From positions 67,968 to 102,018 of the forward strand of contig CAIPHS010000005.1 of assembly GCA_903864915.1 (NCBI GenBank): 34,051 nt of DNA. Reading direction: 5' to 3'. The notes below the pieces were generated by a model, which was not told the origin of the DNA, searched no databases, and saw only the letters and a program-made list of their open reading frames with translations. Positions within the stretch are counted from its first letter, which is position 1; each line of letters begins with the position of its first letter. This document shows, piece after piece, positions 15,312-31,946 of this stretch. Source of the DNA: an uncultured Candidatus Woesearchaeota archaeon (GTDB lineage Archaea > Nanobdellota > Nanobdellia > UBA10117). The position numbers and the translations under genes are program-made.

Positions 15312-17774
15312 TTACTTCTTCTTGCTGTTTTTCTTCTTCTCTTCAGCATCCAAAATGTCCTGGGCTGTTGGCTTCTTGCCGTTTCCGTTCTTCTTTTCGT
15401 CTTTTGGAGCTTCAGTATCTTCATCCAGGAACTTGTTGAACTTGTTGACCAAGTCCTTCCTTCTCAGCAAGTAATTTGCAAATGCAACTATCACTATTAC
15501 AAGCACTATGAACAGCCAGTTAGGTATGAAGTAAGTTGTCGCTGTCAGGAAAGCTGTAATTGTGCTGAATGCACCGCTCAAACTGCCCAGGCTTGACATG
15601 AAGCGCTCTTTTGCTGACTCTGCCTGCACAGTCTCGTTCTTAGCTTCTGCCAGCTTTGCCTGTAAGGCTGCTGACAACAGGCCCGAGACATTCTCTGTAG
15701 GTGCAGTCTCATTGGTTTCATTTGAGACAGCTGTTGTCTGGTTTTCTTCCTGCACTATCGGTGCCGTTTCGTTAGTTTCATTAGTTACTGTAATATTTTC
15801 AACAGGTGCTGTCTCGTTTGTTATTGTAACGTTTTCCGGAATAGTTTCGTTTGTTATTGTGATATTCTCAGTTGGCGCAGTTTCATTCTCAGTTATTTCG
15901 GTTATATTTTCTGCAGGTGTAATATTTTCTTCACCCTCTATAACTGGTTCTGAAACATTTATCCCGCTTTCATTTACAACTGGCTGTCCTTCAGTCGTTG
16001 TGGCATTTTCAGCAGGAACTTGCTTGACGAAAAGAGATTTTACCTTTGCGACAAAGCTGTTCCACCAGCCAACTATCTTGTCCTTTATTGCCGAAAATCT
16101 TTCAGACACAGGTGCTGCAGAAGTTACTGTCTTCTCAGTCGCATTAGTCTCTTGAGACAAGACTATGTCAAAGCTTGTTGTTGACATTGTTGTAGCCTGG
16201 TCTTTCAACCTGGCCGCAACTGTGACTTTGTATGAATCCTTGGCTGTCCCTTCTGGCACTGCAACATAGGCATATACCGTCTTTGATGACTTGCCTTCCA
16301 ATGTCAGGGAAGCTGGATTTAATTGTACAAATGCAGCGCCTGTTCCGCTGACTTCCAGATTATAAGTGGAGTTTTCCACGCCCTTGTTTTCTACAACAAT
16401 AGGGACTAGTGCTGGCTCGCCAGCTGCAACATCGATGCTGGTCAATGCAGATGTTGTTACAACACCGAAGCAGCTCTCCAGTGATGCAACTTCCAAATTC
16501 AAGTCGGAAGAAGCTGATGCCTTGCTTGCATCCTGCGCTTCAGCTGTTACTGTTATGGTCTGCTTGCCAGTTATTGCTCCCCCTTTCGGGGCCACTATCA
16601 AATTAATAGATGTAGCTTCGCCAGCCTTCAAGTCTGCAAATGACTTGTCTGCAGAGGCGAAATCTGCGCCTTGTACGAGTATTGAGTATCGCGCGTCAAA
16701 TTGCCCGGTATTGACTAATGAAACCGCATATGCCTTCTCAGTGTTAGGGCATATCACATCACTAGCTTCTGATATCTTGACGTCCGCGGAATTGCAAGTC
16801 TTCACATTTGCGATCACTGTCTGTTCTGTCTTTGTTCCCTTGTCTGGCGCAATCGTGACCTTTACGCTAAAGTCACCTGCTATGCCATAGCCAGGGAATA
16901 ACACTAAGTTTGTGAAACGTGCCTGGTCTGCAGGGACTTCAACTTTTGTATTTTCAACGGTGGCCCATGCAGGCCCATCAACAGAAAGCGCGTAAACATT
17001 ATTGACTGAACCTGCGTTCTCTATTGCTATTGGTATCTTGGCTTCTGATGCCTCGCAGAAACTCAGGTAATTAACGTCTGGCTTTGCGTTGAAGTCATAG
17101 CATTGCTTGCTTTTCAGCTGTAGTTGCTGCGACGCTATCGCTTTGGAGTTTTGCGAAGCTGCAGTCACTGTCAGTGCAAAGTCTCCGGTTTGGTCAGCAG
17201 GCGGCGTGCTGTATACACTAATGTCTTTGGTCTGCCCTGCTGTGAGCGTGACTAAATCTTCAGAAAGGATGCTGAATTTTCCAGGTACTCCATTGATTGA
17301 CAGGGCAAAGTTCTCGGTGTATTTGCCTGTGTTCTTCAAATGTAACGAGTAATCTGCTCTTGTTGCCGCACAGATGTCCTGTGATGCGCTGTCTACAACA
17401 AGTTCTGCGGAATGGCAGCCAAGGACCTTCAAGTTAAGCGTTTGTTCCTCTGTTTTACCGACGCTTGAAACTGTGGCCTTGATGCTGTAGTTTCCTGCCA
17501 GGGCAACTATGCTCGGCGTAACATAAACGTAAATCTGTTCGGATTCTCCCTGATTAAGGGAAAAGCCTGCTGGTGCCGCAACTGCCCATTTGGCCGCATC
17601 TCCGCTAAGAGAAACGGTATAAGAATCCTGGAAGTTCCCGTCATTGGTCACAGAAGCCACAAAGACTGCTGTGTCGGTGGCACAAAGAGCCATCGAATTG
17701 GAGCTAAATTCCAGCGCACAGACTGGAGCTAAAACAAAAAGCAGTGATAGTACTGCCAGTAACAGTTTTTTCAT
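15312..17774 (-). CDS. Secreted, C-terminally TM-anchored protein with about 5 tandem Ig-like (NEW3/COG1470-like) domains and an N-sequon-rich stalk
   Basis: Signal peptide MKKLLLAVLSLLFVLAPVCALEF; repeats of about 102-108 aa; stalk NETAPTENITITNETIPENVT...; TM WLFIVLVIVIVAFANYLL; charged tail. Confidence 0.88.
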   Translation of the reverse strand: MKKLLLAVLSLLFVLAPVCALEFSSNSMALCATDTAVFVASVTNDGNFQDSYTVSLSGDAAKWAVAAPAGFSLNQGESEQIYVYVTPSIVALAGNYSIKATVSSVGKTEEQTLNLKVLGCHSAELVVDSASQDICAATRADYSLHLKNTGKYTENFALSINGVPGKFSILSEDLVTLTAGQTKDISVYSTPPADQTGDFALTVTAASQNSKAIASQQLQLKSKQCYDFNAKPDVNYLSFCEASEAKIPIAIENAGSVNNVYALSVDGPAWATVENTKVEVPADQARFTNLVLFPGYGIAGDFSVKVTIAPDKGTKTEQTVIANVKTCNSADVKISEASDVICPNTEKAYAVSLVNTGQFDARYSILVQGADFASADKSFADLKAGEATSINLIVAPKGGAITGKQTITVTAEAQDASKASASSDLNLEVASLESCFGVVTTSALTSIDVAAGEPALVPIVVENKGVENSTYNLEVSGTGAAFVQLNPASLTLEGKSSKTVYAYVAVPEGTAKDSYKVTVAARLKDQATTMSTTSFDIVLSQETNATEKTVTSAAPVSERFSAIKDKIVGWWNSFVAKVKSLFVKQVPAENATTTEGQPVVNESGINVSEPVIEGEENITPAENITEITENETAPTENITITNETIPENVTITNETAPVENITVTNETNETAPIVQEENQTTAVSNETNETAPTENVSGLLSAALQAKLAEAKNETVQAESAKERFMSSLGSLSGAFSTITAFLTATTYFIPNWLFIVLVIVIVAFANYLLRRKDLVNKFNKFLDEDTEAPKDEKKNGNGKKPTAQDILDAEEKKKNSKKK

Positions 17775-18813: not shown

Positions 18814-20007
18814 CTAGTAGTACAAGGTCTTTGCTGTCTTGCCGTTGTTGTTCTTGTTGTACTGCATGAATGCTACTATGGCTGCACCAATTATGGCCAG
18901 ACCGACAAACAAGCCAGCGAATCCTGACAATCCCTGAGTCACATCTGCATTAACTGTCATCTGTGAGATTGCGTTTCCGCCCTCTGTAACAGTTATGGTT
19001 GCTGTCTGTGCGCCAGTTGCTTCAGGAGTCATTTCGATTGAAACTGTCCTTGATTGCGCTGGAGCCAGGCTAAACGTGGCTGGGGTTACAGTTGTCTTTA
19101 TGTTGTCTGCTACAACTGCAACTGCGTATGTCTTGGTTTCTGTTCCCTTGTTTATAATGTTCAACTGCACAGAATCTGTCTGTGCGAACTTCAAGCCTTT
19201 TGTTATGGTTGAAGTTGGGGTCTTTGTTGCGTCCACTTTTGCAGGCACTTCAACAATCAGGTTTGCACTTGCTGTGTTCTTAGCCAGGTTGTTTGAAGCT
19301 GTTGCTGTCAAAGTGTAGATGCCTGATGCATCTTTTGGCAGGTTAAACGTGAAGTATACAGTCTGCTCAGTTCCTGAGTACAGGTCGCCGAACAGCTTGA
19401 CTGACTTCAAGACGTCGAATTCTGGGACTGCTACTGCAATAGCAACATTTGACAAGTCGTCCTTGCCGTTGTTCCTTACAGTAACTGCTACATCAACTGT
19501 GTCGCCAGCTTTGTACTGTGTCTTTGACAACCTTACATCAGTTACGTAAACAGAGTCATCCTGACCTTCAACTTGAAGTGTTTTCCTTGCTTCAACAGTT
19601 ACCTTTTCACCGGCAACTGCGAATGGTGCTTCGAATCTGCCGCTTGCCTGGATTACTATTGTGTAATCGCCGGCTTCAACATCGGCAGGCACATTCAATG
19701 TTAGTGCCAAGTCTCTGTCTGAGTTCTGCTGAACTACCAGACCAGATGCAATAGCTTTGTCTGAAACTCTCTCGCCGAACTTGTTCTCAAGCCAAGCCTT
19801 GACTTCGATGTTCTCTATGTTCAAGGTTGGGTCTGAGTTTGCAAGAGTCATCTCAACAGGTATGCTTGTACCCGGAGCTACGTTATCTTCATAATCTATA
19901 TGATTGATTGCAAATTCTGAGGCTTTGCTGTCTGTTGCTGCAAAAGCGGCTATAGGGGCAATTAACAACAGAATTGCCAACGCTGTAAATATTTTAGTGG
20001 CTATCAT
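18814..20007 (-). CDS. Secreted, C-terminally anchored CARDB-like surface protein
   Basis: Signal peptide MIATKIFTALAILLLIAPIAAFAA; CARDB-like YKAGDTVDVAVTVRNNGKDDLSNVAIAVAVP; C-terminal TM GLFVGLAIIGAAIVAFM. Confidence 0.85.
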   Translation of the reverse strand: MIATKIFTALAILLLIAPIAAFAATDSKASEFAINHIDYEDNVAPGTSIPVEMTLANSDPTLNIENIEVKAWLENKFGERVSDKAIASGLVVQQNSDRDLALTLNVPADVEAGDYTIVIQASGRFEAPFAVAGEKVTVEARKTLQVEGQDDSVYVTDVRLSKTQYKAGDTVDVAVTVRNNGKDDLSNVAIAVAVPEFDVLKSVKLFGDLYSGTEQTVYFTFNLPKDASGIYTLTATASNNLAKNTASANLIVEVPAKVDATKTPTSTITKGLKFAQTDSVQLNIINKGTETKTYAVAVVADNIKTTVTPATFSLAPAQSRTVSIEMTPEATGAQTATITVTEGGNAISQMTVNADVTQGLSGFAGLFVGLAIIGAAIVAFMQYNKNNNGKTAKTLYY

Positions 20008-20012
20008 TTTTT

Positions 20013-21290
20013 TTACTTTCCCCTCGCCTTAATAATTAAAGGCTTGGCTGCGCCTTTTGACATGGCGTCCTTGCCAACCCAAGCAATTATTCCAGCAAGT
20101 ATCAAGACAATTGCGCCCAGTGCTATCTCAGTAGTTGGTAAAGGTGTGCTTGTCTGTTCAGCAGGTTGCACAACAGTCACTGTTGACTGTGGCTGTACGA
20201 CAGTTACGCCGTCTATTGCCAATATGAACCTCTGTATTGTAGAGACACTTCCATATACAACTGATACTATAGTATAGTACTTGCCCGACTTTGTGTTTTC
20301 AGGGACAACAAAGTTCAGGTACTGGGTTGATGTGTCGCCTTGGTTTAATGTGAACGTAGCGCTTGTAGTCTGCACGCCGACATCGCTTACCAGAGTCACC
20401 TTAACAGTCTCGTCGTTTGAGCCTGTGTTTACCATTGAAACAGCTATCTGCACAGTGTCGCCAGCCTTGTAGCTGGTCAAGTCTTCCTGTGTGCCTGTTA
20501 TCAATACCTGGTGCTTCAGCTTTGCAACTTCCAGTTCAACAGTGTTGCCTGTTGCCGGATATTTTGCAATTTGCTGTTTGCCGGATGCATCTTCCCACTT
20601 CAGGTCTACAGTCACTTTGTAAGTGTCTGCGTCTACCTGTGCAGGTATTTCGATTGCGAATGTTTCATCTTGTGAACCGCCAGCGCTTAAGCTGCCTATA
20701 CTTATTGTAGAGGTAACATCTTCGCCGCTATTCAAGTTCTGAACTGTTAATTTTGCTTCAACATGTTTTGCTGTGTAGTTGTTTGCTTCCTTTGCGTCAA
20801 CTTCAAGCTTGAATGTTACTGTGTCGCCAGGGTATACTGTGTCCTTGAAGTCTAAGTTTCCAACATACAAATCAGTACTTGTGCCTGTTGAAGTTCCACT
20901 TGATCCGCTACCGTTGTTTGTGCTTCCATTATCGTTAGAAGCTGGTATAGGGGTCAAGTCGTATGATAATACTCTTATAGGACCGAAGTCGTCATTTACT
21001 GAGACGCCCTTCATTGACCATGCATTGTAGCCTGTCTTTTCTATTGTGATGTCGTACTTGCCGTGTGGCAGGTAGAATGTCATGTCTGTCAGGCTGCCTG
21101 GGTTTGTCCAGGCATGGTTTTCGGTTCCAGTTATGGTTATTTTGTCAGGAGCAGGTGTTGATGCGCTATAAGGCTTCAATTCCAATGCGTGTATAGGTAC
21201 AGCTGCAGCTCCAACTGCTGAACCTACTATTGAAAGCAGGAACAACAGTGCAATAAACAATCCGTTTATATTTTTCATTTTCCTTTTCAC
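20013..21290 (-). CDS. Secreted, C-terminally anchored protein with PEGA-like and CARDB-like domains
   Basis: Signal sequence; PEGA-like LPHGKYDITIEKTGYNAWSMKGVSV; YKAGDTVQIAVSMVNTGSNDETVKVTLVSD; TM EIALGAIVLILAGIIAWVG. GTG start overlaps the upstream stop (GTGA). Confidence 0.83.
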   Translation of the reverse strand: MKRKMKNINGLFIALLFLLSIVGSAVGAAAVPIHALELKPYSASTPAPDKITITGTENHAWTNPGSLTDMTFYLPHGKYDITIEKTGYNAWSMKGVSVNDDFGPIRVLSYDLTPIPASNDNGSTNNGSGSSGTSTGTSTDLYVGNLDFKDTVYPGDTVTFKLEVDAKEANNYTAKHVEAKLTVQNLNSGEDVTSTISIGSLSAGGSQDETFAIEIPAQVDADTYKVTVDLKWEDASGKQQIAKYPATGNTVELEVAKLKHQVLITGTQEDLTSYKAGDTVQIAVSMVNTGSNDETVKVTLVSDVGVQTTSATFTLNQGDTSTQYLNFVVPENTKSGKYYTIVSVVYGSVSTIQRFILAIDGVTVVQPQSTVTVVQPAEQTSTPLPTTEIALGAIVLILAGIIAWVGKDAMSKGAAKPLIIKARGK

Positions 21291-23341
21291 TCCTTTATAT
21301 TAGCCGCAGCAGTCTTGTACTCTGCGTCTGTGGTTATACGGCCTTCAACATATTTGCCGTTCTTGAAAGCAGCTATTAATGTACCTTCTTTTCCATCCTT
21401 GTCGTCTTTAGCGTTTACAAGGTTGTAGAACTTTACAGTTGCGCCGTTGTCAAGGTATTCCCTTGTCCAGTTCTTTGTCGCATTTGAGATGCTCTCATTT
21501 CCGTAAAAGTTCATCATCTTTGTTACATTCGTACCGCTATCAATTGCAAAGAATGAGTACATATCAGGGTGTATGCCTGCATTGACTTCCCACTGGTTTA
21601 GTGTGCCGTTTGCAGCATCGCCAGCCAGGTAGTTTGCATGGCTTACGTTGAACAGGTCAGATGTTATGTTACCCATCCACTGGTACAGTCTTGTTTCCTG
21701 CAGTCCGTGTGTATAACCAGCATCCTCACCCTTGTCATAAATGCCCTTCAATATCTGGTCAAGTGTGGCATGGTCCTTTACGTCAACGCCGTCCCTGACT
21801 GCAATTGCTATTGCATCATTGACTGCATCCTGGAAGCCAGCATCGCTGCCCTTGCCCAGTGTCTTGTCATATAATATGTTTAGTATCTTAGTCCTGTTTG
21901 CATCGCTTTCTGTCATGTTCTTTATCAATGACAGGTTTGTCTTGTCCATGTTTGGTAATTTTGTAAGGACATAGTCTCTCAAGCCATTGAATGTCACAGA
22001 CAGGCCATCAGTGTCAGCCATTGCGGCTAACTCTGCCAGCAATTGTGTGTTGTTCAGGCCATGCAAGTATGTTATATTGACTTGCGTGTTGTGACCGCTT
22101 GCCCAAGTTTGGACGTAGCTAATTAAGCCGTCCTTGGTTGTCAAGTTGTCCCAGTCTGAGCCTATGTTCAGGTTGTGTTCACCTGCAATCTTGCCCAGAG
22201 TGTAAGTTGTGTTCCAATCATCCCTCTGTGCCGATTGTGCAGCATTCCAAATTGGATGTGCTATCTGGTCGAGCGTGTCTACGACCTTGCCGAAGTGATC
22301 AACAGCTAAGTCGCCATCTTCGACGTAATTGAAAGCCTTTTCGACTTTTTCCTTGTCAACAGAAATTGCTTTTCCATCACTGCCGTAAACTGTGTAGGAA
22401 ACAGTTCCCTTGCTTACCTTAACTTCTATGGCTTTTGCATCGGTTACGCCTGTGTATTTTGAGACTTGTGCGACATCTTCTTTCGCAATTGGCCTTAACC
22501 AACTCAATTCCTTGCCGTCAAAGACAGGAGTTGTGTAAACGTTAACGTCTCCGGCGTTGTTGCCATCAGAGTTGTGGTGGCCTTGTGAAAGCGCAAATGC
22601 GTTCCTTGCCTTTTCAGGTGAAAGAGTCTTGACATTTCCGTCATAGTATTTCACGACTCCGCCATCTTTCATGTCCAGGGTTATATTTACATTGCCTGTT
22701 CCGTCTTTAGCAAGTATATAATTTACATTAGAACCTACAACGTTTGACCAGTTTATGTTTAAGCCAAGGTAGTCTGTCAAATCCTTTGCAGTTGCAGTAT
22801 CATCTACATGGTAAGTTTGACCAAGGTGAGCTTCCAAATCTGCTGGATGATCGTGGGTCACCGAAATAGTTGTCTTTTTTACTGGGTGAGTTAATCCATA
22901 AGCTGCTAGAAAACCTGCAACTGGACCAACAGCTGGTCTTGCAGCGCTTACTATAGCTACACCTAATCCAGCCGCAGCTCCAAGCAAAACGCCTTGTGGT
23001 CCTGGAACTGTTGAAACAACATACGTGAATGTGGCTCCACCACCAAGAACTGCGCTACCTGCTCTTGCAGCCTTTGTTGTTTTAGGGTGTGCTAAGAACC
23101 AATTATTATAACCATCTGTTAAATCTTGCAATTTGTGAGAATTATCATACCAGTTTGCAAAACTTCCAGGTGCTTGAGTGACTGTAATTATCGGAGCTGG
23201 AGCTGGTGCTCCTGGAGCTGGTGCGGGAGGGGCAGACATTGTTGAACTCCAACCTCGCTTGTTTGCCCAACTTCCGGGTGTTATAGAACCATCTGTATTG
23301 AATCCCAATTTGCGTTTTATCTTCTCTTTTATTTGAACCAT
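21287..23341 (-). CDS. Membrane-anchored protein of unknown function with a large sequon-rich C-terminal region
   Basis: Basic N-terminus, Pro/Ala-rich linker (SAPPAPAPGAPAPAP), hydrophobic Gly/Ala-rich segment (about aa 95-150), then about 500 aa with roughly 16 N-x-S/T sequons. SD GAGG before the ATG. Confidence 0.82.
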   Translation of the reverse strand: MVQIKEKIKRKLGFNTDGSITPGSWANKRGWSSTMSAPPAPAPGAPAPAPIITVTQAPGSFANWYDNSHKLQDLTDGYNNWFLAHPKTTKAARAGSAVLGGGATFTYVVSTVPGPQGVLLGAAAGLGVAIVSAARPAVGPVAGFLAAYGLTHPVKKTTISVTHDHPADLEAHLGQTYHVDDTATAKDLTDYLGLNINWSNVVGSNVNYILAKDGTGNVNITLDMKDGGVVKYYDGNVKTLSPEKARNAFALSQGHHNSDGNNAGDVNVYTTPVFDGKELSWLRPIAKEDVAQVSKYTGVTDAKAIEVKVSKGTVSYTVYGSDGKAISVDKEKVEKAFNYVEDGDLAVDHFGKVVDTLDQIAHPIWNAAQSAQRDDWNTTYTLGKIAGEHNLNIGSDWDNLTTKDGLISYVQTWASGHNTQVNITYLHGLNNTQLLAELAAMADTDGLSVTFNGLRDYVLTKLPNMDKTNLSLIKNMTESDANRTKILNILYDKTLGKGSDAGFQDAVNDAIAIAVRDGVDVKDHATLDQILKGIYDKGEDAGYTHGLQETRLYQWMGNITSDLFNVSHANYLAGDAANGTLNQWEVNAGIHPDMYSFFAIDSGTNVTKMMNFYGNESISNATKNWTREYLDNGATVKFYNLVNAKDDKDGKEGTLIAAFKNGKYVEGRITTDAEYKTAAANIKE

Positions 23342-23427
23342 TTTGTTTACCTCATGAGATGCTTAGCATCATTTTTTACTTTATAGTAGCTAATGCCTAT
23401 TTAAACCTTTCGATTTGTTGCTACTTC

Positions 23428-25188
23428 TCAATTACTAAAGTATTGGCCTAAATCTGGCGCACCCTCGACGTGCTTGGCGCCCGAATAGTAGGGCAATATG
23501 TCTGCTATTGCTTTTGCAGTCTTGACGTCCTTTACTGGCAAGCTAACGTAATTCCTGCCATCCCCTACTATAATATTAGTATAGTCTTTTGATGTTGATA
23601 TGGCAAAGATATCTGGCTTGTCCCCTGGATACTTATCCATGAACTTTTCTTTGGCCCTTTCGTAAAGTCTGGCAAATTTTGCCGCAGCCTTAGGGCTTGT
23701 TTCTGACACCTTCCTGAAGGTAAGGGCTGTTGACAGCTCGCTATATGGAAAATCGTTATGCGTTTCTTGCAGTCTCTTTGCATTTTTAGCACTATGCTTG
23801 TAATGAAGGGTTTCGTTGCCTTCCCCTGATTCTGCCTTTGCCTGGAAGAATTTAACTATGCCACTATCGCTTTCTGGATCGTAAGAATTCCAAAGTGATT
23901 TTGCTTGATCGACTTCAGACCTTTTGTGGTAAATATCCCGCAGGTACAAAATTGTGTTTGCCCATATCGCACGGGCTGCATCTTTTGCATCATCATTGTT
24001 GACTAAATCCACATCTTTTTCGTTTGCAATGCTTTCGTTATTGTTCTGCATTGAAACATTTGTTTGGTTGAGTACATTATCCAAATATAAGTCGCAATTA
24101 GTGTCTGCGCCTTTTGCGTTTGCAATACTTTCCAAGTCTTCCAGTGCAGCATGTGCTGCCAGCGCATATTCATTCTTTGGATCAAGGCAACTCAACCTGT
24201 CAATAGTATTGTGCAACGTTCTCAATCTCAACGCACCCATATTTTTCAGGAGTGTTGGGATGAGCACCATTTTCTTTTCTTTGGTGTTTGGCGTAACACT
24301 CTCGCCGATAGTATCATAATACCATTGCAGAATATTTCTCGCATCCTTTTCTTCAACACGGTCTTCGCCCGCATATACGCAGAACAATTCAACCATCTCA
24401 TTTACGTTTTCGGGAATTGCAAAGCTCAATATGTCTTCAAGCTGCTTCTGCCTTGCAACCGTGTGCGCTAGTGTCTCATTTTGAGCGCCGCCGTTTGGTA
24501 TTGCTGTATTTTCTATCTGGTTAATGGTATCACATCTTTTCAGATACAAAGGCACGACGTGCTTTAATTTGATTGACTCTAATTCTTTTCCAGCAGCATC
24601 GTAATCAATTTTTGTGTGCCTGCACGCGAAAGGGTCACAAGTGTCTGCAAACTCTGGGTGCTTTCCAAACAATTTCTTTTGTATACATTTGCTATTTTGG
24701 TCTGGATAAAATTCACAATCATATGCGGAGACTGGTAAATTTATGCCAAATTTTCTGACTGCTTCCTTTCCGGATATCCATGCATCCTGTGCCTGTTCCC
24801 ATAAGAATTCCTGCAGCACGCCAGACTGCAATTTATCTAAAACATAATTCACATCTGATGTATCGATGGTGTAAAAAATATCTGAAGCATTGACTGTTGA
24901 AGGTGCATATTCAAAGCCTTTGACCTTGATTATGGCAATATTTTCATCAGGCGTTTCAACAGAATAGTTCAGCTGTCCGGGCCACTTTACAGCCACACCT
25001 TCAGGGCTTACGTGAAAATCTGCGCGATTTAACGCCCTCGGATTTGTAGGTTCCCAGTACTGATCTTCGTAAAGTTTTACATTTTCTAAGTACTTAATTA
25101 GATTATTAACACCATCAGATATTTTTTTCTCGGCAATAGTATTGACTGCGATTTTGCCTGGTTTTGAGCTTACGACCATTTTCACCAC
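23428..25188 (-). CDS. Hypothetical 586-aa protein, no recognised family
   Basis: Long ORF with protein-like composition; strong TATA-like TTTATATA at 25216-25223. Start is GTG at 25188 or ATG at 25179. Confidence 0.8.
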   Translation of the reverse strand: MVKMVVSSKPGKIAVNTIAEKKISDGVNNLIKYLENVKLYEDQYWEPTNPRALNRADFHVSPEGVAVKWPGQLNYSVETPDENIAIIKVKGFEYAPSTVNASDIFYTIDTSDVNYVLDKLQSGVLQEFLWEQAQDAWISGKEAVRKFGINLPVSAYDCEFYPDQNSKCIQKKLFGKHPEFADTCDPFACRHTKIDYDAAGKELESIKLKHVVPLYLKRCDTINQIENTAIPNGGAQNETLAHTVARQKQLEDILSFAIPENVNEMVELFCVYAGEDRVEEKDARNILQWYYDTIGESVTPNTKEKKMVLIPTLLKNMGALRLRTLHNTIDRLSCLDPKNEYALAAHAALEDLESIANAKGADTNCDLYLDNVLNQTNVSMQNNNESIANEKDVDLVNNDDAKDAARAIWANTILYLRDIYHKRSEVDQAKSLWNSYDPESDSGIVKFFQAKAESGEGNETLHYKHSAKNAKRLQETHNDFPYSELSTALTFRKVSETSPKAAAKFARLYERAKEKFMDKYPGDKPDIFAISTSKDYTNIIVGDGRNYVSLPVKDVKTAKAIADILPYYSGAKHVEGAPDLGQYFSN

Positions 25189-25201
25189 TATATGCTAGTA
25201 A

Positions 25202-25221
25202 TATATACAATATGGTATATA
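25202..25221. promoter_or_regulatory. Dyad overlapping the TATA box of the 586-aa gene
   Basis: TATATAC-AATATG-GTATATA: 7-bp perfect arms overlapping TTTATATA (minus strand). Confidence 0.35.
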
Positions 25222-25250
25222 AAGGTTATGGTGGCTTTGTTAAGTTAGTT

Positions 25251-25274
25251 TAAAATAATAAATAAAAAGAAAAG
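25251..25274 (-). terminator. Probable T-rich terminator of the tubulin-like operon
   Basis: Minus strand reads CTTTTCTTTTTATTTATTATTTTA after the 243-aa gene. Confidence 0.45.
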
Positions 25275-25277
25275 GGC

Positions 25278-26009
25278 TTACTTGCCCTTCATGCCCTTAA
25301 AGTATTCTTCCTTTATGCGTTCTAAAACTGGCTTAGCCAGCTTTTCAGCATTTGGTCCCGTGACTTTTCCGCCGAAAGCAGAGTATTCGCCTATTTTCTT
25401 TCCGCCATCGTAAACAGCCACATATGCTGACCAGAAACCATCCACGAATTTATATTCCATATCCTTGGCAGGTGCTGGAGCAGCAGTTTCCACTTTGGTT
25501 TCAAGATTGTCTTCCATCTGCAGATCTTCAGCATCTTCCTCTTTTGGAGTTTCGGTAGGAGGAACTGGCTTTGGTTCGGCTGATTTTTTTGCAGCTTCCC
25601 TTTCCGCAAGCAATTGGTTTAAGCTTGTTTGGTAAAGATTTGCCCTTTCGACAGCTTGCTTTTCATTCTTATAGGGACCTTCTTGGTCGCTTTTAACTAC
25701 CCAGGGCCCCTTTTTTCGCATATACATTACACCATCTGTTGAAGGTGCTTTTGGATCTTTAGAAGGAAACCTTGCGGCATAAGCTACAATTTTATTAGTA
25801 ACAGGGTCTGCATAAACTTTGGTGGGTTTGACTGTTCCATCTTTTCCAGTAACCCGTAATTCATATTCGACTAGGTCGCTAAGTTCAGGTAATTCATCTT
25901 CATCTGCATCGTCAGTTTCTGTTGGAGTTGGCTGTTCGTCTTCACTAGGCTCTCCGCCTAATCCAGCAAACGTCTCTTCTTCTTTTGATTTTTTATCTTC
26001 ATCTGCCAT
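25278..26009 (-). CDS. Acidic hypothetical protein, third gene of the tubulin-like operon
   Basis: Acidic low-complexity N-terminus (EDEQPTPTETDDADEDELPEL) and two ordered-looking segments. Start lies 2 nt after the upstream stop (TAAAAATG). Confidence 0.8.
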   Translation of the reverse strand: MADEDKKSKEEETFAGLGGEPSEDEQPTPTETDDADEDELPELSDLVEYELRVTGKDGTVKPTKVYADPVTNKIVAYAARFPSKDPKAPSTDGVMYMRKKGPWVVKSDQEGPYKNEKQAVERANLYQTSLNQLLAEREAAKKSAEPKPVPPTETPKEEDAEDLQMEDNLETKVETAAPAPAKDMEYKFVDGFWSAYVAVYDGGKKIGEYSAFGGKVTGPNAEKLAKPVLERIKEEYFKGMKGK

Positions 26010-26011
26010 TT

Positions 26012-28561
26012 TTATTTACCTCTTGTGCCTTTGACTTTAGCCGCTGCTTTGTTGGCCAAGTCCTTGAACTTTGACAGTCCCTTTGCCCAGTATGATTCCT
26101 TCTTAGGAGGTTCAGCTACCCGTATAGGTACAGGTGTGGCTGCAGTTACTGGTGCAAATACGATTGGTTTTGGCTTTCCGAAATCATAGAAGTTGCCTTC
26201 TGGCGTCCTCAATGACTCTCTATCATAAATTGCATTATACATGTAAGCAAACGTCTTCAGAACATTGTCACCAGCATACAGTCCTTTACCTCTTACAGCG
26301 TCTGATGTTGCTGCGATGACTTCCAGCTGGGCCTCTGAGTTCTCGACGTATGGCAACTCTTCCTCATCAAGGATTTGCCATGTCAAGTTCTTGTCGCCGT
26401 TAGCAAACACTTTACGGAACGTATCTTTGTTAAACGAATTGTAAACTGTCTTTGTATTTTCATACAAAACTATTAAATCTTCAGTCGTAACTGTTGAAGG
26501 CCCGCCTATCAACACAGATGTGGCTTCGTTCTTGCCTGTTCCTGTGTAGCTTATAGCTGTTGCATGACGCCAGATTACGCTTGCTTCGTCAACCAGATAC
26601 TTTGCTTCATACTGATATGAGTCTGGCTTCTGCTGTCTTGACGTCAATGCAAACATGACTTGTGTTGGAGTCAGGTATTCAATAGGAACTTTTGCGTCAG
26701 GAATATCTTTCTTTATTTCTTCCTTCGTCTTGCCCATCTTCAAAGCGGCAATTACTGTATCAACGTACTCTGAAGGTGTCATTCTGTTGTCAAAGAATTC
26801 CTTGCCTTCAAATTGTTTCGTGAACAAGCCGTTGAATACATCCCTTTGTATAATGACATCTTTCTGTTCACCTTCTTTGCCAATCTTGTGCGCTTCCTTG
26901 TACACTGCATGCGAAACTGGCTTTGCTAATACGCGAAGTTCATCCAATACCGCATCTCTCGTACTAGGTCTCCTTAGCTCATTAGCATGCTCATAATAGC
27001 CTGCTATGGTTCTGCCAGACATAAAACGTATGAATTCCTTTACTTCAGAATCCTTTGTTCCTCTGGCACCCTGCAATGGCTTGTTCAAAGCACTTGCAAA
27101 GTTCATTATTATATCAACAAGAGATTTGTCTGTGACTGCAACGTTATTCACTTTAGGGGCTTGGCCTGTTGCTTTTACAGTTGCCTCGCCTGCAGCGTAA
27201 ACTGCTGCTGTGCTTACTACAATATCTGTATTAATTGCTGGCATGAATTGTTCACCAGATACGCCTTTTGCGACTCTCCTGCTCTTGTTCATAATACCGA
27301 GCAGGTTAACTACCGCATTTGGAGCATCTGAGCCGACCAACGACTGCGGATATGTTCTGCCAGCCCATGTCAAAAAGGCAGGTTCTCTCCTAATAGGTAT
27401 ATTTTCCCAGCCATATTTCTTCATGTCATAAAGCAAATCTGCAATACCATCGGTGATTGCACCGCCTGTTCCGCCGCTCATAGAACTTAACAAAATGACA
27501 AGTCGAATATCTGCATCTGCCAAATTGTAATTGTCAGTGATGCATTTTTCGCTGTCCACTTCGCGACCAACCATCCTGTATCTTATTGGTATCTTGATTG
27601 CACTATTTACTAAATCAACATCAATCTTGCCTGGTATGTATATCCATCCGCCTTTCAAGTCGACAATCTGTTTATGTGCTATGGCATAGTCAAGGTCAAT
27701 TTGCTTATATTCAGGACTCTTAGGATCCTTCTGATTGCTAAGTGCGAACTTCATGAATTCTGGCAATGAATATGCTATGGCTGCAATGTCTTCTTTTCTT
27801 ACCTGCATGCCCCTCATGAATGCATGGCCTACTGCAAGGCTATTTCCAGTGTGCAATTCCTCGCCCTTGCCAGTTAAGCTTTCATCAGTATCGCTATAAG
27901 TTATGCAAGACCAGCATGGAAATTTGTCATCAAGGGTTGTTCCAAAAGATGGGTGTGGCACTGTCGTTCCTGACAAAGTAACGCAGGCATTTGGTGCTCT
28001 GTTTGTTAACCTTAAATCGCCTGACCAGTCAATCGTATATGGCTTGACATCCAAGCCCTGGAAGTTCAAAGAAACATCAACATATTCTTTATTTGCATCA
28101 CCAGTCATGATTTCCCGGCGTATTTGGTCTCTGTTTTTTCCTACAATAGCTCCTCTTACATCCAAGTCTGCAATATTATTAACATCAACTGTTCGCGTAA
28201 CTACTGGGCCAACAAATTCTTTCAAAACATCATTTACAATTATTTTAGCGCCGCTTCCACCACATCCAAAAATAGGAATAGTAGGTGTGCGTATGACACC
28301 TTTTGCACCGTTTTGTTTATCCATCTCACCTTTAATTTGATTACCATATAGTGGTGATAGTTTATTAAGAGTTGTGCCAGGTTTTTCGTCAACTTGAGGT
28401 GTCTCGCTATGACCTTGGCCTTCTGCGCTGGCAATTGCCACAGACGTCGTTTTAGCCCTGCCATCATCCTCTAATATTTCTGTCAGCACATCTTTTGGTT
28501 TTTCTTCCTCATCGAGTTTCTTGCGCTGCAATGGAACGGAGGGTATCAGTTGGTGTGGCAT
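26012..28561 (-). CDS. Divergent tubulin/FtsZ-superfamily GTPase-like protein, 849 aa
   Basis: T1-like TPTIPIFGCGGSGAKIIVNDVL (FtsZ VxGxGGxGxN); T4/signature ADIRLVILLSSMSGGTGGAITDGIADLLYDM (FtsZ [29 protein letters not shown]); possible T7-like INTDIVVS. Confidence 0.72.
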   Translation of the reverse strand: MPHQLIPSVPLQRKKLDEEEKPKDVLTEILEDDGRAKTTSVAIASAEGQGHSETPQVDEKPGTTLNKLSPLYGNQIKGEMDKQNGAKGVIRTPTIPIFGCGGSGAKIIVNDVLKEFVGPVVTRTVDVNNIADLDVRGAIVGKNRDQIRREIMTGDANKEYVDVSLNFQGLDVKPYTIDWSGDLRLTNRAPNACVTLSGTTVPHPSFGTTLDDKFPCWSCITYSDTDESLTGKGEELHTGNSLAVGHAFMRGMQVRKEDIAAIAYSLPEFMKFALSNQKDPKSPEYKQIDLDYAIAHKQIVDLKGGWIYIPGKIDVDLVNSAIKIPIRYRMVGREVDSEKCITDNYNLADADIRLVILLSSMSGGTGGAITDGIADLLYDMKKYGWENIPIRREPAFLTWAGRTYPQSLVGSDAPNAVVNLLGIMNKSRRVAKGVSGEQFMPAINTDIVVSTAAVYAAGEATVKATGQAPKVNNVAVTDKSLVDIIMNFASALNKPLQGARGTKDSEVKEFIRFMSGRTIAGYYEHANELRRPSTRDAVLDELRVLAKPVSHAVYKEAHKIGKEGEQKDVIIQRDVFNGLFTKQFEGKEFFDNRMTPSEYVDTVIAALKMGKTKEEIKKDIPDAKVPIEYLTPTQVMFALTSRQQKPDSYQYEAKYLVDEASVIWRHATAISYTGTGKNEATSVLIGGPSTVTTEDLIVLYENTKTVYNSFNKDTFRKVFANGDKNLTWQILDEEELPYVENSEAQLEVIAATSDAVRGKGLYAGDNVLKTFAYMYNAIYDRESLRTPEGNFYDFGKPKPIVFAPVTAATPVPIRVAEPPKKESYWAKGLSKFKDLANKAAAKVKGTRGK

Positions 28562-30006
28562 TACTCAAACTCCTCATCTATGACTTTCGAATCTCTACTC
28601 TTGTAAACTTTAGTTGCTGGCTTGTGTGGTGCTGGTGAATCCATTCGTACTACTGGAATTTCTTCTGGCTTGGCTTTAGGCGAAGGTGCTGGCTTTCTGG
28701 CCATCCAAGCCTCGTAGTCTGCATAAATTGCGCTCTCCTGCTCTGCCTTCGTCTCAACTGCCTTTTCCCCAGCCATCCAAATCTTGTAGGCTGCGTACAT
28801 GCCTATCAGGCCGCCTATCAGGCCGCCAACAGCATTTGAATTATCTATCTGGTGCAGCTTGTCTGCATAATCTGCCAGCCAGCTCGCACTTGGCAAGTAA
28901 TTGTTAATCACATTCTCTATCAAATGAGCTTTTTCAACGAGATAGCCAATAACCATAGAGACTGGAGCGCTGCTTGCTGCAGCAGCCAGCCATCTTCTGG
29001 CATGCCTGCTAGGTTCATTGCGCTTCTCTTCAATTAAATCATTACAATGCGTCTCTGACAGTTTCAGCTTTTCTTCCAAATCTTCGACATTTCCTTTTGC
29101 AAGTTTTTTCTCGAGAGACTTGATTTTTTTCTGCGAACCAATTACTTGTTCGGCAGCTACGAGATAATCTTTAATATCTTTAGCAGGCATCTTCTCTGGC
29201 GTGTAAATTACGTCTTTGCCTTCATCATTAAAATATGCAAAACGGCCATCTTTCCTTTGGTGTACCCAAAGCTTCTTGTCTTTCGCTTTAGAGTATACCA
29301 TAATTTCAACTTTGTTATTGTGCTCTCGTATAGCCTTACCACTAGCTATAACGACGTGCTTGAGATGTATGGTTGTGATACGTCTATCGTAATTTCCCGA
29401 TAAGCTTTCTTTCTGCTCGTCCAGGCGTGCATCCAAATCTGCCTGTGAAATGCCTGCTCCAGTTTTTTCATCTGCTTCCAGTTTGCTTTTCAAGTCTGCA
29501 ATTTCTTCTGCTTTCTCTTCGAGCTCTGCTTCCAAACTCTCACACTCCGCCTGATAATTCACAGAAGGAGATACTGGTTTTGCAGGTGGGCCAACAGGTT
29601 TTGCAACTGGCTTCTGGTACTGCGGAGGCACATATGGCTTTGCTTGTGCTGTAGCTGGCTTTGGTGCTTCTGCAGGTTTTGGTGGTTGAGGAGGAGCTTG
29701 CGGCGATGACCCATATAATTCGGCAATCCTTTGCTTTACAGCAGCCACAGCCATGCCTGGCACTTCACGTATAAGATCTGAATTAGAGTCATAAACAAGC
29801 CCTGCATTAGTATTATAAAATCTAGTTGGGTTTGTCAAGCTGTCTGGATAAATCTTGCAAACAGACGTTTCCAGCCCATCGCCGGATTTGCGGAAGACTT
29901 CAAAAACTGGCTTCTTATCCATTACCTCAACTGTTTTCTCTGCACGGAAAGTTAGTTTGCCAGAACTCTGTCCCGTAACAGGTTTTTTCTTTTTTTGGAC
30001 AACCAT
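28561..30006 (-). CDS. Coiled-coil protein with putative TM hairpin, first gene of the tubulin-like operon
   Basis: Pro-rich linker, coiled coils (ECESLEAELEEKAEEIADLKSKLEADEK; KKIKSLEKKLAKGNVEDLEEKLKLSE), hydrophobic segments WLAAAASSAPVSMVIGYLV and VGGLIGGLIGMYAAYKIW. TAATG overlap with the next gene. Confidence 0.82.
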   Translation of the reverse strand: MVVQKKKKPVTGQSSGKLTFRAEKTVEVMDKKPVFEVFRKSGDGLETSVCKIYPDSLTNPTRFYNTNAGLVYDSNSDLIREVPGMAVAAVKQRIAELYGSSPQAPPQPPKPAEAPKPATAQAKPYVPPQYQKPVAKPVGPPAKPVSPSVNYQAECESLEAELEEKAEEIADLKSKLEADEKTGAGISQADLDARLDEQKESLSGNYDRRITTIHLKHVVIASGKAIREHNNKVEIMVYSKAKDKKLWVHQRKDGRFAYFNDEGKDVIYTPEKMPAKDIKDYLVAAEQVIGSQKKIKSLEKKLAKGNVEDLEEKLKLSETHCNDLIEEKRNEPSRHARRWLAAAASSAPVSMVIGYLVEKAHLIENVINNYLPSASWLADYADKLHQIDNSNAVGGLIGGLIGMYAAYKIWMAGEKAVETKAEQESAIYADYEAWMARKPAPSPKAKPEEIPVVRMDSPAPHKPATKVYKSRDSKVIDEEFE

Positions 30007-30086: not shown

Positions 30087-31946
30087 TTAGTCTTCTTCGC
30101 TGTTTCGTTTGCCTTTATTGCCGTAGACTTTAACGTCACTTCTTCCGGCAACTCTCTTGCCGATGACAATCAGGGCGAATGCTGCCAATACTCCAATCAG
30201 CACGATGAACAGCAATCTCTGCTCGTCAGTCTTCAGTCCGGCCAATGGGTTTATCAGTACACTTGGTTTTGCGCCCATCTTTACATTTATTGTGCTTGAG
30301 CTTACAACCAGATTTCCTGACTTCACATTCAGGACTGCAGTTTGGTCACCAGTGGCAGTTGTTTTAGGTGTTATGTAAACCAAAACATCAGTTACTGCCC
30401 CTGAGGCTAATGTAACTGTAGCTGGCTCGACATAACCGCTTGCCCAGTCAGAAGTTCCAACCAGTTCCAAGGTGTAAGTTGCAGTTGTGCTGCCTGTATT
30501 CTTTATTGCAGCTGAAACTTTCAACTGCTGACCTTGTGTTCCTTCAACAGAATTTGTTGAAAGGGTCAGTATGCCTGTTCCGCCAGTTGTTGGAGTTTCT
30601 GTTGTAGTGGTTGTGCCTGTTCCTGTGCACAGCACTTCAAGCTCTGCGGATGCTGTCTTGGCATCGTTTCCATCGTTGTACTTGACAGTGACTTCCAAAG
30701 AATGGTTGCCAGCCTTTGCATCAGCAGGTATCAGGACTGTCATGGTCTTTGTAGCTTCTGCTCCTGAACCCTGGTAGTTAAGGTCGAACGAACCTGAACT
30801 TTGCGATATGCTTAGGTCGCTATCCCTAACTATAATCTCAACTGTGTCTTGATTTGAGCCGGTGTTCCAAAAGTGTGTTACAACATCAACGGAATTCCCA
30901 CAAACTACTGTTGCGGGATTCATTGCAACGCCGTCTATGTATGTGTCGTAGTCGTTACGTTCAACATCCACTGAATAAGTGTAGAGGTCAGACTTTTCTG
31001 TGTCGTTCGCATCCTTTCCGACTGCTTCCAGCATCAAATAGGCTTTGCCAGCCTTAGTTTTCGGAGGGACTTGTAATTTTATGGTGAAATCATTGCTGTC
31101 CTGTCCATCAAGGCTGAATGAATCCAATGAAACCTTGTCAGTCAACCTCGTGCCTGCTGTATTCTGCAGCCATGCTCTCACATGGATGCTCTTCATATTA
31201 GTTGAGATTTTATTTTCAACGGTGAATGCAGTGTCAAGGAAATCGCCAGGCACTAATTGCGAATCATCGTCTGTTACATCGTCAACTGTAACATCGGTTA
31301 TGGCAAGCTTGCCGTCATTCGATGCCCTTGCAACGATGAAATATGTTGTTCCGGTGACAGTCAATCCGCCAGAATCCGTAACAGTTATTGTAACTGCGCG
31401 TATGGTGTTTATGTCTGTATCTTGTGCATTAATTGTAATCAAGCCAGTGTTTGAATTTATAGAGAATGCACTCCAGCTGGCTGCATCTGCAGAATAGGTT
31501 GCAATGTTACCATCAACATCGGATGCAACTTTTGTCAAGTCATATGTAAACGCTGAGCCTGCATTCACTTCAATTTCTGAAGGCAAACTCAAAGTTGGGG
31601 CATCGTTCACAGGCACTACTGTGGCTTTGAATGTGCTAATCTTGCTTACGCCTGAGTTGTTTGTCGCATTTACAGTAATTGTTTCTGCGCCATTCCAGTT
31701 TGCTTTCGCGCTGAAAGACAACACGTTGTTTGCAACAGTAACGTAGACATTTGTATTTCCAGTAATATTATAGGATGCTATACTTTCGCCTGTGGAAAGC
31801 GTTAGCTGGCCTGTAGAGACCAAATCAACGGTTTTAGCGGAGTCTTCATTAAAACTGACAGCATTTACGCTGAGTTCGAATGCCAGCGCTCCAGGTATTA
31901 ATAACAACAATGCCAGTATCGGCAATAACTTTTTCATTATTTTCAT
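30087..31946 (-). CDS. Secreted, C-terminally anchored surface protein with cadherin-like/Ig and CARDB-like domains
   Basis: Signal peptide MKIMKKLLPILALLLLIPGALAFE; VVPVNDAPTLSLPSEIEVNAGSAFTYDL cadherin-like repeat; CARDB-like segments; TM LLFIVLIGVLAAFALIVIG. SD GAGGTG. Confidence 0.87.
   Translation of the reverse strand: MKIMKKLLPILALLLLIPGALAFELSVNAVSFNEDSAKTVDLVSTGQLTLSTGESIASYNITGNTNVYVTVANNVLSFSAKANWNGAETITVNATNNSGVSKISTFKATVVPVNDAPTLSLPSEIEVNAGSAFTYDLTKVASDVDGNIATYSADAASWSAFSINSNTGLITINAQDTDINTIRAVTITVTDSGGLTVTGTTYFIVARASNDGKLAITDVTVDDVTDDDSQLVPGDFLDTAFTVENKISTNMKSIHVRAWLQNTAGTRLTDKVSLDSFSLDGQDSNDFTIKLQVPPKTKAGKAYLMLEAVGKDANDTEKSDLYTYSVDVERNDYDTYIDGVAMNPATVVCGNSVDVVTHFWNTGSNQDTVEIIVRDSDLSISQSSGSFDLNYQGSGAEATKTMTVLIPADAKAGNHSLEVTVKYNDGNDAKTASAELEVLCTGTGTTTTTETPTTGGTGILTLSTNSVEGTQGQQLKVSAAIKNTGSTTATYTLELVGTSDWASGYVEPATVTLASGAVTDVLVYITPKTTATGDQTAVLNVKSGNLVVSSSTINVKMGAKPSVLINPLAGLKTDEQRLLFIVLIGVLAAFALIVIGKRVAGRSDVKVYGNKGKRNSEED

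Follow-up and report, generated by a model that had tools for sequence, protein, structure and literature searches.

A probable, very divergent tubulin/FtsZ-superfamily protein encoded within the S-layer gene locus of a Woesearchaeota archaeon

The window analyzed here, a stretch of 34,051 nucleotides from an uncultured Candidatus Woesearchaeota archaeon, encodes an 849-aa protein (P0001) that we regard, with somewhat more confidence than doubt, as a very divergent tubulin/FtsZ-superfamily protein with a putative GTP-binding N-terminal half, acting as an envelope organizer at the membrane face. Its superfamily membership, as judged from sequence comparison, is a probability and not a result, and a divergent form within this well-known superfamily is a plausible description of it. 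The protein probably serves as a scaffold that is switched by nucleotide and associated with the membrane or envelope, being neither a canonical FtsZ nor demonstrably a Tubulin_2 protein. The open reading frame that the first-pass annotation had placed at 26012-28561 was confirmed as real and lies on the minus strand, and the two motifs on which that annotation relied were found where it had described them, IFGCGGSGAK at exactly aa 97-106 and ADIRLVILLSSMSGGTGGAITDGIADLLYDM at aa 350-380. The host genome, available as a draft of 0.65 Mb with 82.65% completeness, carries two ordinary FtsZ genes (L002 and L003) elsewhere; therefore, P0001 represents an addition to them. The features discussed below are collected in Table 1.

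Table 1. Positions of P0001, its segments and the adjacent genes in the window.
Feature	Position	Strand	Basis
P0001, putative tubulin/FtsZ-like protein, 849 aa	26012..28561	minus	ATG at 28561, stop at 26012; T1/T4 tests
P0001 N-terminal ~92 aa, charged	28286..28561	minus	sequence
P0001 S1-T1-H1 block, aa 93-115, with IFGCGGSGAK	28217..28285	minus	best FtsZ block match in P0001
P0001 T1-to-T4 stretch, aa 116-351, with PCWSC	27509..28216	minus	spacing count; no Pfam match
P0001 S4-T4-H4 block, aa 352-381, SGGTGG at aa 362-367	27419..27508	minus	ORF comparison, Pfam on fragment
P0001 candidate H5-S6-T6, aa 435-455	27197..27259	minus	best in-order block, weak
P0001 candidate H7, aa 473-496	27074..27145	minus	best in-order block, weak
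P0001 aa 677-706, IGGPSTVTTEDL, resembling the FtsZ_C GGPDMTLDE segment	26444..26533	minus	not significant
P0001 candidate C-terminal basic amphipathic helix, aa 822-843	26033..26098	minus	hydrophobic moment
P0002, 481 aa, operon gene 1; proline-rich, coiled-coil-like, hydrophobic patches near the C-terminus	28561..30006	minus	sequence
P0005, 243 aa, operon gene 3	25278..26009	minus	sequence, gene spacing
Terminator-like hairpin, P0005 end	25271..25290	minus	sequence
P0003, 586-aa orphan	23428..25188	minus	TATA-like TTTATATA upstream
P0004, 684-aa orphan; one hydrophobic segment near aa 116, many N-glycosylation sequons	21287..23341	minus	sequence
Conserved S-layer protein (NF033506), island flank	30087..31946	minus	NF033506 above cut-off
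Opposite island flank: pair of Ig-like surface proteins of 397 and 425 aa, retained across the order	18814..21290	minus	Pfam, synteny

The nucleotide-binding loops T1 and T4 were both found in P0001. The GxGGxG loop (T1) follows a strand in the S1 position, with its FtsZ block matching best at aa 93, and a consensus variant of the (G)GGTG(S/T)G signature between S4 and H4 (T4) occurs as SGGTGGA at aa 362-368, with its block match at aa 352. In a comparison with 746 other ORFs from 40 stretches of the host and related genomes, the P0001 score for the FtsZ S4-T4-H4 block was equalled by none (0/746), while the score for the T1 block alone, T1 being common to Rossmann proteins, was reached by eight, and that for T1 and T4 in order by one, a Rossmann dehydrogenase-type protein without the GGTG motif. 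The Gumbel p-value of P0001 for T1 plus T4 was ~2e-3 against natural pieces and 4e-4 against shuffles. Additionally, in a scan with FtsZ T1 and T4 profiles covering nearly all of the host genome together with the islands of its relatives, P0001 (14.2 bits) ranked third behind the two true FtsZ proteins (153.9 and 147.3 bits), the next score being 6.6 bits. With hhalign, using a profile of 39 FtsZ proteins of related genomes, P0001 also gave two collinear local matches, scoring 30.5 at T1 and 28.5 at T4, whereas five shuffles gave 20.6 at most; the top match covered aa 79-104, and several FtsZs aligned at aa 93-115 with E-values of 1-3. When the whole protein was compared with Pfam, Tubulin was the sole family returned (E 0.038, 14.7 bits, aa 347-380), and a 44-aa fragment around T4, compared with 24,736 families, returned only Tubulin (E 0.0017, 19.1 bits) and Tubulin_2 (E 0.13, 12 bits). 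No Pfam model reached its cut-off on the whole protein or on the T4 fragment, PF00091 (Tubulin, 33 bits) included, the cut-off of PF13809 (Tubulin_2) being 27 bits. The FtsZ profile gave no support to the earlier assignment of VVTRTVDVNNIADLD, after T1, to the S2/T2 region.

The same glycine motifs could belong to some other Rossmann-like nucleotide-binding fold, of the ThiF or dinucleotide GxGGxG type, with GGTGG being coincidental. This explanation draws on the eight ORFs that reach the T1 score, on the dehydrogenase-like protein that reaches the T1 and T4 sum, and on the E1/ThiF proteins that occupy the same slot in sister genomes. However, neither the whole P0001 nor its T1 fragment was matched by the ThiF or Rossmann families of Pfam or NCBIfam, and its T4 proved specific to tubulin families in Pfam and was unmatched in the 746 ORFs, so that a Rossmann-like identity is considered fairly unlikely.

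As regards the remainder of the fold, T1 and T4 are separated by 263 residues in P0001 versus a constant 88 in FtsZ, corresponding to ~175 extra residues, and aa 116-351 had no Pfam match. With boundaries taken from FtsZ, the best matches of the S5, H5-S6, H7 and S8-H10 blocks occur in order and are weak, those for H5-S6-T6 and H7 after T4 starting at aa 435 and 473, respectively. Within aa 386-520, a region picked post hoc, an equally good ordered S5/S6/H7 series was given by 9 of the 9102 natural pieces. The T7 catalytic motif NxDxx[D/E] is absent throughout the P0001 sequence, the T7-H8-S7 and S10 blocks were not found by the FtsZ block scan, and T7, S8-H10 and S10 combined were at chance level; no FtsZ C-terminal domain was detectable, with S8-S10 blocks not significant. 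The earlier proposal of a tubulin-superfamily branch is partly supported: superfamily membership, based on T1, T4 and the weak collinear S5/S6/H7 signals, is the reading of the N-terminal half with the best support, and T7 and the C-terminal domain were not found. Some candidate readings were rejected: TKDSEV, picked by eye as T7, was unsupported by the block scan and the T7 motif search, a by-eye FtsZ_C domain was unsupported by the block scan, and a full-length gapped DP alignment with FtsZ was discarded, which outscored 1000 shuffles under relaxed gap settings yet was a patchwork driven by T1 and T4. Among FtsZ genes, a separate observation concerns that at L196:858-3095 (G048:C18), which is split inside the T4 signature (GGG / TGTG) by ~370 aa; this insert carries LAGLIDADG-like motifs, its ends (CLTGDS... 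VVHN) resemble those of inteins, and it is a putative intein in the GTP-binding loop.

Homologues of P0001 were found neither in its own family and order nor in the genomes of the phylum (two overlapping draws, 371 and 377), and none was recovered from GTDB contigs (searched twice), viral contigs, phages or plasmids. One of the GTDB searches used a motif-degenerate alignment in which invented variant rows solely steered the choice of patterns. Two weak matches among the phylum genomes were, on inspection, a coiled coil and a subtilase-like protein, and no PDB chain matched, tubulin-family chains included. Since homologues were not found, AlphaFold was limited to the single sequence and performed poorly, with pLDDT values of 30.6 (whole protein) and 31.3 (aa 88-563) and no usable model.

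P0001 could also be a true FtsZl1/Tubulin_2 member that drifted past the Pfam model and takes part in an FtsZl1-type membrane-remodelling complex. In fact, P0001 shows FtsZl1 traits (PMC2875224): it is long, carries an insert between T1 and T4, has no identifiable T7 or C-terminal domain, coexists with ordinary FtsZ and lies in the same type of operon. Besides Tubulin itself, Tubulin_2 is the one Pfam family that the T4 fragment matched. On the other hand, the possible placement near Tubulin_2 suggested by the first-pass annotation was not shown, PF13809 giving no whole-protein match and 12 of 27 bits on the fragment; moreover, PF13809 members were absent from all 371 genomes of the phylum, though the model controls were detected, and neither Pfam nor NCBIfam identified any gene of the window cluster as encoding a vWA protein, a kinase or a P-loop GTPase. 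True membership is therefore regarded as unlikely. A motif search of viral contigs for Tubulin_2 examples returned chance matches only.

The P0001 gene belongs to a tight run in which the P0002 stop overlaps the P0001 start (TAATG) and a gap of 2 bp precedes P0005, an arrangement predicting a three-gene operon with P0001 in the middle. Neither P0002 nor P0005 matched a Pfam or NCBIfam family above cut-off, and a domain common to both was unsupported. A TATA-like TTTATATA is found ~30 bp upstream of the P0003 GTG (region 25188-25268), which suggests a promoter of its own with a short leader, and P0003 is therefore probably a separate transcript. GC3 is lower in P0001-P0005 than in four housekeeping genes, and their codon usage resembles that of the host less closely, the codon correlation of the host S-layer gene being lower still. 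The S-layer gene side of the island also carries tRNA-Arg and LeuRS, and P0003, P0004 and the two Ig-like genes lie on the opposite side. Regarding the surface genes themselves, the products of 18814-20007, 20013-21290, 30087-31946 and 15312-17774 are Ig-like proteins with a C-terminal transmembrane segment, predicted at the surface and probably secreted; that of 30087-31946 matches NF033506 (PACE-CTERM), a name which seems to point to Pacearchaeota and hence suggests a DPANN host, that of 18814-20007 matches this model below cut-off, and three degenerate 26-nt direct repeats lie at 15775-15869, within the gene of an 820-aa surface protein.

The operon sits in an island of unrecognized genes within a conserved S-layer gene block, whose flanking genes (S-layer, Ig-like surface proteins, RNase Z, GlyRS, EF2) keep largely the same arrangement across the taxonomic order. 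The content of this slot varies, with three genes in G006, ~20 in each of G001 and G002, and little or nothing in G009, G010, G014 and G016. In G001 (L147, L148) and G002 (L149, L150) the slot is syntenic with 21287-30006, and its cargo, unrelated to the P0001 island, comprises ThiF/E1-like, Prok-JAB (only in G001), paired AAA+, transglutaminase-like and giant TPR proteins, one of the two AAA+ having a sub-threshold MIT match. In a small archaeon, this island may encode a ubiquitin-like or membrane-remodelling system; an ESCRT-III identity, suggested by eye for two of the sister-island proteins, had no support from Pfam. No counterparts of the sister-island genes were found in the host genome apart from generic AAA and TPR matches, and P0001-P0005 had no significant match to the sister-island proteins; P0004 shares position and architecture with 698- and 700-aa sister-genome proteins, with homology not significant. 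That P0001 came from a mobile element or virus, as a protein with the tubulin fold that forms TubZ/PhuZ-like filaments for partition or centring, and settled among the surface genes appears very improbable, for although the orphan genes, the variable slot, the adjoining tRNA-Arg and the codon and GC3 deviations (surpassed in codon correlation by the S-layer gene) would fit it, no viral, phage or plasmid match to P0001, and no integrase or replication gene in the window were found, the sequence examined showed no duplication of the tRNA end, and the relatives' slot holds non-viral-looking genes.

Under the preferred reading of P0001 as a divergent superfamily member, GTP would be bound by the T1 and T4 loops of its N-terminal half, with the ~175 extra residues between them, and the ~92 aa before T1 are probably disordered. 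In an FtsZ-type cycle, the T7 loop of one subunit hydrolyses the GTP of its neighbour. Since the T7 catalytic motif is missing, P0001 probably lacks such a cycle, and it may hydrolyse GTP poorly, perhaps as a filament, use another loop or be a GTP-bound scaffold. The hydrophobic moment of aa 822-843 (~0.51) is among the highest values in the protein, and membrane association could occur through this basic amphipathic C-terminus and P0002. A location at the cytoplasmic membrane face is most likely, because P0001 is co-operonic with P0005 and with P0002, a coiled-coil protein with hydrophobic patches, and has the basic amphipathic end. From there, it may organize or remodel the envelope beneath the surface proteins of adjoining genes, the adjoining island genes being orphans. 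More tentatively, P0001 might represent a previously undescribed DPANN branch within the tubulin superfamily: a long nucleotide switch, T7-less and tethered to the membrane, which organizes the envelope and occupies the slot of the sisters' AAA+/E1-like/JAB/TPR system. If the fold is confirmed, the superfamily would come to include a protein that lacks the T7 catalytic motif, in a lineage whose genome is so tiny that any additional cytoskeletal gene is notable; it would also suggest that the archaeal envelope is scaffolded by a cytoskeleton apart from division. The variable slot in the conserved S-layer locus is also a site at which to seek more envelope-associated machinery in these archaea.

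Compared with known systems, P0001 has only the general superfamily signature in common with CetZ, TubZ, PhuZ and tubulins, its whole-protein match to Pfam Tubulin lying below cut-off and tubulin-family PDB chains giving no match. It resembles the FtsZ1 and FtsZ2 of its host in the order and context of T1 and T4, with the best local alignments at T1, and differs from them in its double length, T1-T4 distance (263 versus 88), score on T1 plus T4 (~14 versus ~150 bits), missing T7 NxDxxD and lack of a detected FtsZ_C domain. FtsZl1 is a long protein with an FtsZ-like N-terminal domain and T1-T4 inserts (Makarova & Koonin 2010, PMC2875224), which has no recognizable T6-T7/T6-H7 region or C-terminal domain, coexists with ordinary FtsZ and is found in operons of lineage-specific genes (PMC2875224). 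P0001 departs from FtsZl1/Tubulin_2 in not reaching PF13809, in GGTGG replacing GGTG(S/T)G, in the ~92 aa before T1 and in having no recognized vWA, kinase or GTPase partner, which is not a strict requirement. Since Tubulin_2 proteins are sparse and poorly alignable (PMC9871819), the failure of PF13809 weakens membership more than it weakens the likeness, which comprises the long sequence, the T1-T4 insert, the unrecognizable T7 and C-terminal domain, the presence beside FtsZ and the lineage-specific operon.
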